Source: an uncultured Verrucomicrobiota bacterium
GTDB lineage: Bacteria; Verrucomicrobiota; Verrucomicrobiia; Limisphaerales; UBA9464
DNA length: 41,073 bases
Assembly: GCA_903880005.1 (NCBI GenBank)
Contig: CAIRNV010000115.1
Coordinates: forward strand, 1-41,073
Direction of reading: 5' to 3'
The number at the start of each line of letters is the position of its first letter. Within the stretch, counting starts at the first letter, position 1. The notes below the pieces were generated by a model, which searched no databases, was not told the origin of the DNA, and worked only from the letters and a program-made list of their open reading frames with translations. Made by a program: the position numbers and the translations under genes. Shown here one piece after another: positions 13,219 through 17,702 of this stretch.

Positions 13219-13995
13219 CTACAACCACCGCAGCAACGCCGTCGCCACCGCATGGCCCGCCCGCTCCGTGGAGATGCATCCGCCGTGACGTGCCACCTGC
13301 TCCTTGACCGACGGCATGCCATTGGAGGGCACCAGGAGATGCCGGGCATGCCGTGGCAGGAGCATGGGCAGGTCGTTGAAGTGATCCCCCGCCGCGAGGG
13401 TTTCGTCGGGCGAGATGCCCAGCAGCCGCTGCAACTCGGCCAGCGCCGTCCCCTTGCTGTACGCCGCGTGGCTCAGGCGCACGTACACGTCGTTGCGCAC
13501 GACCGCCAACCCGCTCACCGACGCCGCGAACTCCACCAACTCGGCCTCGATCCGGTCCATCTGGGCCACGCTGCGGGCGATCGCGCACAACGGGGACCAC
13601 GGGTCGTCGTAGAACATCGCGTCATGCCGCGACTGCAACCCCTCCAGCAAGTCCGGCACGGCCTCCGCCATGCCTGCGAACAACCGGGCGTGGTCCTCAT
13701 GGCATCGCGTGTTCCACGGCTCCACCGGCACATAGTGCCCGCGGTCGTTCGCGAAGATCTCCCGTTCGACCAACACGAGGTAGTCGGGCCGCACCGACGC
13801 ACCGGACCGGCCCAGGGTTTCCATCAGGCTTTGCATCTCGCGCCCCGTGTTGATCACCCACCGAACCCCGCGCGCCTGCAACGACGCGATCCGTTCCTGG
13901 AACGCCAGCGGGATCGGGGCCTCCGCATGCTCCTCGTGGATCGTCCCGTCAAAGTCGGTGGAAACCAGCCGTAGTTCGTCGCCCATCGCCCCCAT
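13219..13995 (-). CDS. HAD-superfamily phosphatase (Cof/IIB type)
   Basis: The 258-residue protein is a HAD-superfamily hydrolase. Motif I is 'STDFDGTI' (nucleophile Asp14, Asp16), motif II is in 'WVINTGRE', motif III/lysine is 'YSKGTALAELQRLLGI' and motif IV is 'LAAGDHFNDLPML'. The large cap between motifs II and III fits the IIB subclass that acts on sugar phosphates and similar small phosphates; the exact substrate is not predictable. A GGAGGGAGGG run lies about 11 bases before ATG 13995, so I prefer this to the TTG at 14022 used by the ORF track. It lies 147 bp upstream of lplT on the same strand and could be in the same transcript. The ISAs1 element is inserted 56 bp upstream of its start and may have changed its promoter. 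Confidence 0.88.
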   Translation of the reverse strand: MGAMGDELRLVSTDFDGTIHEEHAEAPIPLAFQERIASLQARGVRWVINTGREMQSLMETLGRSGASVRPDYLVLVEREIFANDRGHYVPVEPWNTRCHEDHARLFAGMAEAVPDLLEGLQSRHDAMFYDDPWSPLCAIARSVAQMDRIEAELVEFAASVSGLAVVRNDVYVRLSHAAYSKGTALAELQRLLGISPDETLAAGDHFNDLPMLLPRHARHLLVPSNGMPSVKEQVARHGGCISTERAGHAVATALLRWL

Positions 13996-14041
13996 CGTCC
14001 ACGGAACCCTCCCTCCCTCCAAGAAGTCAGATGAACAACCG

Positions 14042-14051
14042 CGGTCCCCCT
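14042..14051 (+). repeat. Target-site duplication of ISAs1 element, left copy
   Basis: The sequence CGGTCCCCCT lies directly outside the left inverted repeat and recurs exactly at 16002-16011. ISAs1-family elements usually create 8-10 bp duplications. Confidence 0.9.
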
Positions 14052-16001
14052 CAGCGCGTATGCATGAAGCGCTCAGGCGAGTTTTGGGTTGAGGTTGGTG
14101 ACGAAGGCGAAGGCCATGGCGAGGTTGTCCTCGCCCATGGCGGCTTGGAAGTCGGTGAGGGAGAGGTGTCGAGGCCTTCGCTGGCGGCTACGCCAGTGCA
14201 TGTAGAAGCTGATGACGATGCGGCGAAGCATGCCCAGGATCAGCAGTCCGTTGGTGTCGCGGACACGGCATCGATCGTCGTTGAGCGTGACGTCCAGCCG
14301 CTGATGACTGCCGTTCTCGATCCCCCAGCCTTGGCGGTTGGCTTCGAGCCACTCCTTGGCTGGAAGTTCCTCCGGACTCAGGTCGGTGATCAGTCCGACG
14401 GTTTCATCCTTGCGCCCACGACGTTGGCGCGTCAGCCGGGCGCATTGGGCCGCGAAGGGGAACCCAACGTTCTCGGCCTCGACCGGACGACTGACCAGGG
14501 TGCGGCTTTCAGCAACGCCCCGGTTCCTTTCCCGCTTCCGGGCCTGGGTGGGCGTCGTGGTCAGAGGGGGAAAAACCCGTCGGTGGGACGGGTACGGCGT
14601 TGTCGATGTTCTGACGCAGGGTGGATTGGTTGTCTTTGACGCTCAGCAGGTAGTGCGCGCCGTGTTCGAGGACCAACTCCCGGGCAGTCTGGTCCTGCGT
14701 GTGGAGTGCATCCAGGGAGACGACGCGGCCGGCCAGGTCCAACTCGCCGAAGAGCTCCCGTGCCACGGGGATTTCGTTGGTCTTGGTGTCGACCACCGCG
14801 CTGCCCAGGTAGAACTGGCTGGGCACGGTGACCGCCGCCAGGATCGCGTCACCGGGACCGTGGCGGGGCTTCTTGCCATCCACGGCGATCAATTCGTTGG
14901 CCGGTGGTTGTCCCCGCACCTTGGCTTGGATTTGTAGCAACAACTGGTTGAGGATCTTGGCGTCCAGCTTGGCCAGGCAGCGGGAGAAGGTCGATTGGCT
15001 GGGGGCCGGGAAGCGGCCGTTGGGGTGGGGGCGGATCCCCAAGGCCCCGCGCTGATGCTGGTTGAGGCGCCGGGCCAGCTTGGCCAGGTCCTTTTGACCG
15101 CGCGGCGCGTCGCACAGGATGGCCACCAGCATCAGGGTCACCAGCGACCAGACCGGGTAGGACTCCACGCGCTCCCGATACTCGGGCAACTCCCGGAAGT
15201 GCTGGGTCAGGGCACGCAGTTCCGTGCCCTTGAGGTAACAGCGGGCGCCGGCCTTCTTTTCCACCGAGGCCAGCGCCGGCTTGAGATGCTCGGCCTGCAA
15301 GCTGCGCCGGGCGTTCTTCACCAGTTCCCGCACAAAGAGGCGCTTGGGCTTGTCGTGTTCCACGTAGTAGTCCCGGCGATGGCGTCCGCTGCCATCGGTC
15401 AATCCCACCTCCTCCCAGCCTTGGGCCGTGTAGACGGTGCCGTGGAACTGCTCGGGGTCCACAAACGTCTCGACGACCAGCACCGGATGCCCGTAGCGGG
15501 CCTGCCAGTCCGTGCTGAGGCGCTCCAAGGCCAGGCGCAGCACCCGCGATCCCAAGTTGGGCTGGCGCGCCTTGGGCAGGATGAGGAAGCGGCTGTTGTT
15601 GGCGACCAGGCTCAGCCGGCGATCCCGTTGGGCCTGGGTCCATCCGATCCACTGGTCGCGGTGCTTGAGGTGCTTGGCGGCCGCGTTGAAGACCAGGACG
15701 GCCAGCCAGTTCCCCGGGGCGTCCACCGCAGCGTAGAAGATCCGCTCGCCCACGGGCTTGAGCCCGCCCAGATAGTGGTGCTTCCCAAGAAGCGACTGCA
15801 GTCGGCGCAGATCCGACGCCGTGGTCAGGGGCACCACCTGGACTTCATCCAACGACACCGGAGCTTGAACAAGGGCCTTTTTCTTGGGGGCGGCTTGGCG
15901 TTCCACACCCCGGACCCTAAAAAGTTGACGGAGGGATGTCCCGCAAAAACGACTTCACATCGGCCCTTTCGGCCTCAAATCCATCCCATGAATACGCGCT
16001 G
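14052..16001 (-). mobile_element. ISAs1-type insertion sequence, complete, 1950 bp
   Basis: The element is bounded by 15-bp terminal inverted repeats, CAGCGCGTATGCATG on the left (14052-14066) and CAGCGCGTATTCATG read inward from the right (15987-16001), differing at one base. Both ends are flanked by the direct repeat CGGTCCCCCT. Inside is one minus-strand transposase gene with an added DruA-like domain and a frameshift. The intact ends and exact duplication suggest fairly recent insertion. The element lies between the HAD phosphatase gene and a family 1 repeat. Confidence 0.93.
14073..15906 (-). pseudogene. DruA-domain (DUF4338)-ISAs1 transposase fusion, +1 frameshifted
   Basis: Read on the minus strand from GTG 15906, residues ~20-200 match DUF4338, the domain of the Druantia protein DruA ('LLGKHHYLGGLKPVGERIFY', 'WIGWTQAQRDRRLSLVANNS', 'RFLILPKARQPNLGSRVL'). 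Residues ~215-320 match the ISAs1 transposase-associated domain ('YPVWSLVTLMLVAILC'), and from ~330 the DDE domain follows with 'LIAVDGKK' (first Asp) and 'VVSLDALHTQ' (second Asp). The frame then runs to a stop at 14509. The missing end lies in the next frame down to 14073 ('GLITDLSPEELPAKEWLEAN', 'WGIENGSHQRLDVTLNDD' with the third acidic residue, 'RRPRHLSLTDFQAAMG'). One extra base in the run at 14566-14575 (GGGGGAAAAA) explains the shift. Unless the shift is bypassed or is a sequencing error, the enzyme lacks its catalytic Glu and is inactive. Confidence 0.88.
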
Positions 16002-16011
16002 CGGTCCCCCT
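16002..16011 (+). repeat. Target-site duplication of ISAs1 element, right copy
   Basis: Exact second copy of CGGTCCCCCT, directly outside the right inverted repeat. Confidence 0.9.
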
Positions 16012-16253: not shown

Positions 16254-17702
16254 TCAATCCCGGGAGGGATGCGTGGCCGCGTCCGGCGACCCGGGGCCCG
16301 TCGGCCCTTTGAGGGCGGCGTCGAGCCAGCGGATGCCGCCGGGCTCGTCGTCGAAGTCGCCGTCCAACTGGGCTTGGAAGGCCCTTTCCAGGATGTCCTT
16401 GAACCGGGGGCCCGGCGTCCAGCCCCGGGCCACGAGGTGACGGCCCAGGACGATCGGCCGGGGTGCGGCCGTCTCCAGCGCCAGCTCGGACGCCTTGGCC
16501 CGGAGCGCACGAACGGCCCCCGGCTCCCCGGCGGGCCGGGGCGGGCGACCCGAGGCGTCGGCCGTCATGAGCTCGCACAACTCCTCGATCGTCGCCGGGG
16601 CCAGCCTGAGGGCGAGCCGCCGGATCGCGCGGGCCGTGGGGCTGGCCAGGTGCGCCATGTGGTTCGCGACCAGGGGCGGCACCCGTTCCTTCACCTCGTT
16701 GGGCATCCCGAGCCGTTCAAGGAACGCCCCTGCCATGGGCACGCCGGCGATTTCATGGCCTGGCGAGACGACCCGCTCGCGGCCGTCGCGCCACTCGCGC
16801 CGGGTGTGCGTGGCCTTGCCGGCGTCGTGGAGCAAGGTGGCCAGCATCAACACGCCGCGCGTGCGCTCGTCCATCCCGCGCCATCCGCGCTGGCCCGCCA
16901 GCGCGTCGAGGGCGAGCAACGTGTGCGTCCAGACGTCGCCCTCCGGATGCCACTCCGGATCCTGCTCGACGCCCCTCATCGAGGTCAGCTCCGGGTGCAC
17001 GCCGAGCCAGCCAGCGTCCAGGGCGAACGCCAGGCCCAGCGACGGCGCCTCCGAGAGGGTCGCCCACTTCCACCATTCCTCCCGCACGCGCTCGACGGGA
17101 AGCTCGGCCTGCATCGGGGCCATCGATTGGCACAACGCCACGGTGGCGGGGTCGGGGGAGAGCCGGAACCGCGCCGCGAACTGCATCCCGCGGAGGACGC
17201 GAAGGGGATCCTCGACGAAGGCGGCGCCCGTGTGGCGCAACACGCCCGCGCGCAGGTCCGCGACTCCGCCGTGGAAGTCCATGACCTCGCCCGTTCGCGG
17301 ATGGAGCATGATGGCGTTGATCGTGAAATCGCGTCGCAGCGATGCCTCGCGCGGCGAGATGTCCGGGGCCGTCTCCACCTCGAAGCCCCGATGCCCCGGC
17401 CCCACCTTGGAGTCGCGGCGCGGCAACGAGAAGTCGTGCTGCCGTCCGTCCGACAGCGTCACCTTCGCCACCCCAAACGACCGGCCCACAAGGTCCACGC
17501 GCCCCCAACGCCCCAGCGCACGTGCCAGCTCCGGGTAGCCGAGACCGTACACCTCCACGTCGAAGTCCTTGACCGGCCGCCCCATCAAGGCGTCGCGGAC
17601 GCATCCGCCCACGAGGTAGGCGCGGGCCAGCTCGGGCGTCCCCAGCAGGACCTCCCGCAGGGCGGCGGGGACGAAGTCGAGGTTCACGAGGTCTGTCCCC
17701 AA
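16254..17702 (-). CDS. CCA tRNA nucleotidyltransferase / poly(A) polymerase family with HD domain
   Basis: The 482-residue protein is a class II nucleotidyltransferase. The head domain has 'LVGGCVRDALMGRPVKDFDV', giving the family GG-VRD motif and the DxD metal-binding pair. 'REASLRRDFTINAIMLHP' and 'EDPLRVLRGMQFAARF' are the RRD and ER-rich motifs that read the incoming ATP/CTP. An HD phosphohydrolase domain follows in the middle ('LLALDALAG...', 'LATLLHDAGK', 'NHMAHL'), as in bacterial CCA-adding enzymes with 2'-phosphatase-like tails. It probably adds or repairs the tRNA 3' CCA end, though an A-only enzyme cannot be excluded. The ORF-track start is TTG 17702; GTG 17687 is a possible alternative. 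It follows the Tat-exported gene by 18 bp on the same strand, so the two may be cotranscribed. Confidence 0.88.
   Translation of the reverse strand: MGTDLVNLDFVPAALREVLLGTPELARAYLVGGCVRDALMGRPVKDFDVEVYGLGYPELARALGRWGRVDLVGRSFGVAKVTLSDGRQHDFSLPRRDSKVGPGHRGFEVETAPDISPREASLRRDFTINAIMLHPRTGEVMDFHGGVADLRAGVLRHTGAAFVEDPLRVLRGMQFAARFRLSPDPATVALCQSMAPMQAELPVERVREEWWKWATLSEAPSLGLAFALDAGWLGVHPELTSMRGVEQDPEWHPEGDVWTHTLLALDALAGQRGWRGMDERTRGVLMLATLLHDAGKATHTRREWRDGRERVVSPGHEIAGVPMAGAFLERLGMPNEVKERVPPLVANHMAHLASPTARAIRRLALRLAPATIEELCELMTADASGRPPRPAGEPGAVRALRAKASELALETAAPRPIVLGRHLVARGWTPGPRFKDILERAFQAQLDGDFDDEPGGIRWLDAALKGPTGPGSPDAATHPSRD

Follow-up and report, generated by a model that had tools for sequence, protein, structure and literature searches.

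How does an insertion sequence (IS) produce a complete transposase when the reading frame that encodes it stops between the second and third catalytic residues? The question is raised by an ISAs1-type element in a contig of an uncultured Verrucomicrobiota bacterium (GenBank assembly GCA_903880005.1, contig CAIRNV010000115.1, positions 1 to 41,073; this whole stretch of 41,073 nucleotides is called the window). The complete element occupies window positions 14052-16001, with the transposase on the minus strand, and its reading frame begins with a DruA (DUF4338) domain; elements of this kind are called DruA-ISAs1 here. The best explanation as a whole, held at a probability of about 0.68, is that the element belongs to a DruA-ISAs1 subgroup combining a GNAT domain that resembles the phage protein Mom with a frame split, and that the full transposase would be made through slippage of RNA polymerase.

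The split transposase

A sequence-only reading of the window had described a DUF4338-like domain of about 180 residues at the start of the frame, and this domain is genuine: PF14236 was matched by residues 28-176 of the first open reading frame (ORF1) with 90.2 bits against a gathering cutoff of 27 (E = 1.7e-25). The same reading let the frame continue into an ISAs1 DDE transposase, which holds in part: DDE_Tnp_1_assoc (E = 1.4e-8) and the ISAs1 model NF033564 (89.5 bits, cutoff 70) were both matched in ORF1, but the C-terminal part with the third catalytic residue is in another frame. ORF1 spans just positions 2-182 of the 314-position ISAs1 profile and ends shortly after the motif VKDNQ, beyond the second catalytic aspartate (D2), with its stop codon between D2 and the catalytic glutamate. 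The remaining transposase, with that glutamate in GIENGSHQRLDV, lies at 14076-14565 in the +1 frame and matches profile positions 198-312 (ORF2). The hairpin CCCGTC/GACGGG abuts the T5C5 run TTTTTCCCCC at gap 0. The split is the most distinctive feature of the element and had been missed. Because ORF1 stops at about profile position 183 and the rest is in the +1 frame, in place of the single uninterrupted ORF of the ISAs1 family, the element is filed on its sequence as a variant subgroup of that family.

Conservation of the frame break

DruA loci were gathered by Pfam searches in the phylum, in genome contigs, in viral contigs and in plasmids. A set of 40 non-redundant DruA-ISAs1 elements was picked by the position of the break and not by the presence of a run; L087 (a different break), L125 (two elements) and L042 (a continuous frame) were set aside by hand. 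These 40 elements come from many phyla and break at the same spot, and 40/40 have a run of TC, CT or A type there, 8 nt or longer. Elsewhere in the same frames, three such runs were counted in 65,381 nt, an expectation of 0.0037 per 81-nt segment. Elements with T-C runs (T2-7C3-8) need a +1 shift in 20/20 cases, those with C-T runs (C3-8T4-8) need -1 in 17/19, and both elements with A8 or A9 runs need -1 (2/2). On the NCBI ISAs1 profile, which was built without these sequences, the fused elements break between positions 184-186 and 197-199, and intact ISAs1 elements lacking DruA have one frame over positions 1-314.

ORF2 is under purifying selection, with a ratio of nonsynonymous to synonymous substitution rates in its frame of about 0.08-0.36 in most pairs, similar to that of ORF1. 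Matching ends and perfect 10-bp duplications were found in seven split elements (L022, L026, L035, L067, L099, L126 and the window element). One genome (G048) holds four identical 1.9-kb split copies with a C6T4 run (L121-L124) in different places, and the same split is present on the complete plasmid record pTs417 (L119), annotated there as 'ISAs1 family transposase' and 'hypothetical protein'. Taken together, the comparisons indicate that the split is a conserved trait of DruA-ISAs1, functional rather than a product of decay.

A tree of DruA-ISAs1 was built with a quick method using DruA-less ISAs1 as the outgroup. The +1 elements, including that of the window, form a grade, and the -1 elements form one clade (99% in the Shimodaira-Hasegawa-like approximate likelihood ratio test, SH-aLRT) that includes L019, a C-T element of the odd polarity. 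Of the continuous elements, eight that have no run group in a derived clade (97%), and four more are scattered over the tree, three of these keeping T3C6 or T3C8. From this pattern of grade and clades, the split appears to be old within DruA-ISAs1, to have changed direction rarely and to have been lost several times.

Three observations stand beside this picture. The four copies in G048 are without a recognizable target duplication, unlike their relatives with perfect 10-bp duplications. In five loci (L015, L041, L086, L087 and L093) the break comes sooner, after the first catalytic residue but before the second, and because these breaks are again at A/T runs (T7; A AAA AAG; A AAA AAC), they suggest that the slip site can relocate. 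One DruA-less ISAs1 element, L235, also breaks close to the profile position of the conserved split but was rejected as a further case: it is a relic, broken in several places, and has no slip run.

Mechanism of the frame change and rival explanations

Transcriptional slippage is the mechanism that we infer by analogy, because T5C5 with an abutting hairpin is the signal shown for slippage in a Roseiflexus IS element, which is assigned to the IS630 family in PMC6211511. In that element, according to Atkins et al. 2016 (PMC5009743), RNA-polymerase slippage at T5C5 deletes one C and requires a hairpin directly 5' of the run; it is one-directional because one rU:dG is tolerated and rC:dA is not. 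The window element has the T5C5 run, the 5' abutting hairpin and a shift equal to the loss of one nucleotide, each as in this hairpin-dependent slippage. Ordinary expression would give ORF1, comprising the Mom-like GNAT (DruA) domain, the DNA-binding part of the transposase and the first two catalytic residues without the third, and a complete DDE transposase would be made only after a +1 frame change at T5C5. The nascent hairpin would loosen the RNA-DNA hybrid, and U5C5 would re-pair after moving forward by one base, which costs a single rU:dG pair and leaves the mRNA one C shorter. In those sister elements whose run is the mirror image, C(n)T(n), the reverse movement would add one base and again require just one rU:dG. 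Since slipping back one base on C-T runs would cost one rU:dG, and the opposite slips would cost rC:dA, the polarity seen among the elements is what this scheme predicts. Most of the protein made would be a DruA-bearing form that binds the element ends but is incompetent for transposition, with the transposase as a minor product.

The hairpin is associated with one class of runs. A perfect stem of at least 5 bp abuts the run in 8/20 T-C elements, with unrelated stem sequences, versus a background of 1.6% (binomial p = 5e-10, kinship ignored), and in 0/19 of the -1 elements. Averaged over the 40 nt upstream, folding energy showed no more than a weak signal for the -1 elements, and the abutting-hairpin test separates the classes better.

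Several findings weigh against slippage by RNA polymerase, or against a need for it. Polarity is off in two C-T elements, L019 (probably decayed by one base) and the one with C10T4 in L125. All -1 elements fall in one clade, which means few changes of polarity. A perfect abutting hairpin is missing from 12/20 T-C elements. Twelve DruA-ISAs1 rows have one continuous frame, and one genome (G677, of the class of L037) has at least 10 copies with a continuous 625-aa frame; since several elements are continuous, splitting is not essential for mobility, and the unsplit form can be very active. In the +1 class, the end of the run coincides with a codon boundary in 15/22 cases (mostly CCC|T), and TGA follows six of the CCC|T sites. 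These last two points would suit a frame change that is programmed but ribosomal, in which proline tRNA would slip by +1 on CCC-U (often with UGA next) in T-C elements, and the others would shift by -1 on C CCU UUU, U UUU UUN or A AAA AAG; canonical -1 heptamers in the right phase are indeed present in L020, L026, L074, L048, L065 and L021. The phase is wrong for canonical tandem -1 slippage in L055, L067, L072 and L085 (CCC|TTT) and in L027, L062 and L122 (CCC CTT TT), however, and within each class every one of the three codon phases occurs at the T/C junction, which disfavors codon-locked ribosomal slippage. The T run flanking the C run in T-C elements is also kept, though unneeded for +1 tRNA slippage, and upstream abutting hairpins suit RNA polymerase better than the ribosome. 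The ribosomal explanation is rather unlikely on the whole; for the T-C class, the +1 shift on CCC-U is a real rival.

The breaks might also be ordinary decay, homopolymer assembly errors or DNA-level phase variation, with the window copy a dead relic. Homopolymers are indel hot spots, many loci come from metagenome assemblies, and three in-frame elements retain the run. This reading is very improbable and is largely contradicted by the data: 40 widely diverged elements share one site with the shift direction tied to run type, and selection on ORF2, intact ends with perfect duplications in split copies, the four identical copies in one genome and the complete plasmid record all speak against it, as does the near absence of such runs elsewhere in the frames. 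A simple pseudogene was rejected on the four split copies, the ORF2 selection, the intact ends and duplications and the rarity of the runs.

The DruA domain

In an alignment of 71 DruA members (A2), the residues H27, R66, W72, R89, S103, E129, G139, Y142, A144 and W147 are invariant. The Pfam family Mom (PF25680) was matched by 18/71 of these domains. Compared with a profile built from eight Mom proteins, among them that of phage Mu, DruA gave E = 7.5e-9 in hhalign (probability 95.8%, 163 columns, ~18% identity), and the motifs HY, R, N..S, F.D and G..Y.A are common to both (the set H/Y/R/N/S/D/Y/A). An AlphaFold2 model of the domain (predicted local distance difference test, pLDDT, 95.5) matched GNAT acetyltransferases in the PDB with moderate template modeling (TM) scores of 0.5-0.65, and among viral proteins the fold search with the model matches a phage Mom. 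The placement comes from the fold search only, a PDB sequence search with the DruA profile having given no real match, and it counts against the relation that the window domain has no Pfam Mom match at E <= 0.01. The profile comparison and the predicted structure indicate a GNAT fold for the DruA domain and homology to the Mom of phage Mu. DUF4338 has already been termed a GNAT domain (PMC10853773); no paper linking it to Mom was found in a limited literature search, and NCBIfam holds no model for the DruA domain of these elements. The fold search also brought up similar GNAT domains inside phage proteins that are labeled 'putative homing endonuclease' or resemble endonucleases, a further class of proteins of mobile elements.

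Because the fold is related to Mom and conserved polar residues are common to both, DruA is probably an enzyme, and a guess at its substrate would be the DNA of the element. A non-catalytic DNA-binding or target-choosing accessory that kept the GNAT fold, a role close to the one first proposed for DUF4338, is quite possible, if the lesser likelihood. In favor of such a role, DruA always adjoins or is fused to proteins that act on DNA, ISAs1 elements lacking the domain move all the same, and the first glycine of the typical acetyl-CoA loop is replaced (PNLAS). Against this, the invariant polar residues H27, R66, R89, S103, E129 and Y142, several of them (H, R, S, Y) common to Mom, suggest an active site, and a role in DNA binding only is not favored.

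Other transposons and Druantia

DruA is fused to ISAs1 in many phyla and also to IS701-type (DDE_5) and Tn5/IS4-type transposases, and stand-alone DruA lies directly upstream of IS66, ISAs1-like and UPF0236 (ISLre2-type) transposases. By these fusions and neighbors, DruA is a recurrent transposon module of at least four transposase families besides ISAs1, which bears out the earlier view of DUF4338 as part of transposons. The terminal repeats have CAGGG at the end in many relatives and CAGCG in the window element. No paper covering both ISAs1 and DruA was found in a limited literature search. Two-piece DruA-like matches in frames of 1220-1244 aa (G283:C127:49931-51112 and G359:C66:1901-3379) are possibly the DndF-type fusions mentioned in PMC10853773.

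An anti-phage defense vehicle related to Druantia, which the sequence-only reading had considered, is scarcely credible for this element. The PF14236 family does include Druantia DruA, but the window domain scored 13.6 bits (E = 0.0066) against PADLOC DruA, its genome has no PADLOC DruA match, the element is without other genes, and no Druantia partner gene was found in it (in the list of its ORFs; partner models were not searched genome-wide). Membership in Druantia, taken as a PADLOC DruA match with DruB-E partners, was rejected on this score and on the missing match in the genome. The idea that Druantia DruA nests within transposon-borne members did not gain support as stated. Druantia-type DruA scored 15-28 bits against the transposon-borne profile, and a quick tree placed it inside transposon-borne DruA on a branch of length 4.45; that tree was not accepted because of the long branch, and the alternative, with Druantia DruA outside the transposon-borne members, was not rejected by the approximately unbiased (AU) test (p = 0.24).

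Element boundaries and genomic setting

The coordinates of the element, its inverted repeats and its 10-bp duplication had been given correctly (Table 1). The terminal repeats CAGCGCGTATGCATG and CAGCGCGTATTCATG are 15 bp long with one mismatch, beyond which the ends also align in a longer imperfect inverted match, and the duplication CGGTCCCCCT is identical at 10/10 positions in the two flanks. Members of the ISAs1 family have target duplications of 8-10 bp and terminal repeats of 14-22 bp, and the window element is within both ranges. On one side of it is a HAD-type hydrolase gene (13219-14022), on the other a poly(A)-polymerase/tRNA-nucleotidyltransferase-type gene (16254-17702), and the element disrupts neither. 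Because the element is present once in its 5.0-Mb genome, its mobility is deduced from the ends and the duplication and not from extra copies. Elsewhere in that genome are two pieces of DruA-ISAs1, on contigs C474 and C286, and a fragment of DruA on C384.

Table 1. Features of the DruA-ISAs1 element in window coordinates
Feature	Position	Strand	Remarks
Target duplication, left copy	14042..14051		10 bp, CGGTCCCCCT
Terminal inverted repeat, 3' end of transposase	14052..14066		CAGCGCGTATGCATG
ORF2, C-terminal DDE half	14073..14642	-	Open 14076-14642, stop 14073-14075; catalytic E in GIENGSHQRLDV; via +1 shift
ORF1	14509..15906	-	465 aa, GTG start; DruA domain and ISAs1 transposase to just past catalytic D2
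Putative slip run	14566..14575	-	TTTTTCCCCC (T5C5), coding strand; +1 shift (mRNA one nucleotide shorter) would join ORF1 to ORF2
Perfect 6-bp hairpin	14576..14592	-	CCCGTC-ccacc-GACGGG, directly 5' of the run on the coding strand
DDE catalytic domain, N-terminal part (PF01609)	14596..14820	-	ORF1 residues 363-437
DDE_Tnp_1_assoc (PF13808)	14932..15204	-	ORF1 residues 235-325
DruA/DUF4338 (PF14236)	15379..15825	-	ORF1 residues 28-176; predicted GNAT fold, Mom-related
Terminal inverted repeat, 5' end of transposase	15987..16001		14/15 complementary to the other end
Target duplication, right copy	16002..16011		10 bp, CGGTCCCCCT

Comparison with known systems

DruA-ISAs1 elements share with the ISAs1 family (NF033564; PF13808 and PF01609) the transposase domains, CA-ended repeats, 10-bp duplications and a length of ~1.9-2.1 kb; they differ in adding an N-terminal DruA of ~180 aa and a conserved frameshift split, whereas the intact DruA-less members compared are single ORFs of ~340-430 aa. 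Unlike the DNA-modification protein Mom of phage Mu (PF25680), to which it is ~18% identical with a likeness apparent in predicted fold and motifs, DruA is the domain or the neighbor of a transposase. Druantia DruA (PADLOC PDLC00002) is likewise a member of PF14236, but comprises stand-alone proteins of ~400 aa whose branch in the tree is very long. A match to DUF4338 is not by itself a sign of Druantia, and DruA, a defense protein without a settled biochemical role, gains a testable assignment as a Mom-like GNAT and a wide non-defense context as a transposon module. A bolder account, in our view doubtful, would make DruA a Mom-type DNA-modifying enzyme recruited by unrelated transposon families to mark their own DNA, with two mirror-image RNA-polymerase slip codes (T-C, one base lost; C-T, one gained) that keep the transposase rare and the DruA-bearing, transposition-dead product abundant, and with Druantia later taking DruA from such elements.

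The frameshift clusters at A/T runs that PMC3711429 describes in DDE_Tnp_1 and IS630 transposases include members with +1 and with -1 shifts, which that paper takes as a sign of transcriptional realignment. Their sites are mostly A-rich, and the text searched has no mention of ISAs1, DUF4338 or pure C/T runs. The window element is a real and intact member of a little-noticed ISAs1 subgroup with a Mom-like module and a conserved programmed frameshift, probably of a transcriptional kind. It resembles the Roseiflexus IS630-type element, as described in PMC5009743 and PMC6211511, in its T5C5 run, 5' abutting hairpin and equal shift direction. DruA-ISAs1 differs from that element in IS family and position. 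It differs also in a putative signal that varies (T2-7C3-8), in mirror C-T runs that shift oppositely and in its retention across phyla. A slip signal known from one thermophile element thereby gains about 40 natural candidate variants, among them mirror-image runs that need opposite shifts, on which to test the rU:dG rule for RNA-polymerase slippage.
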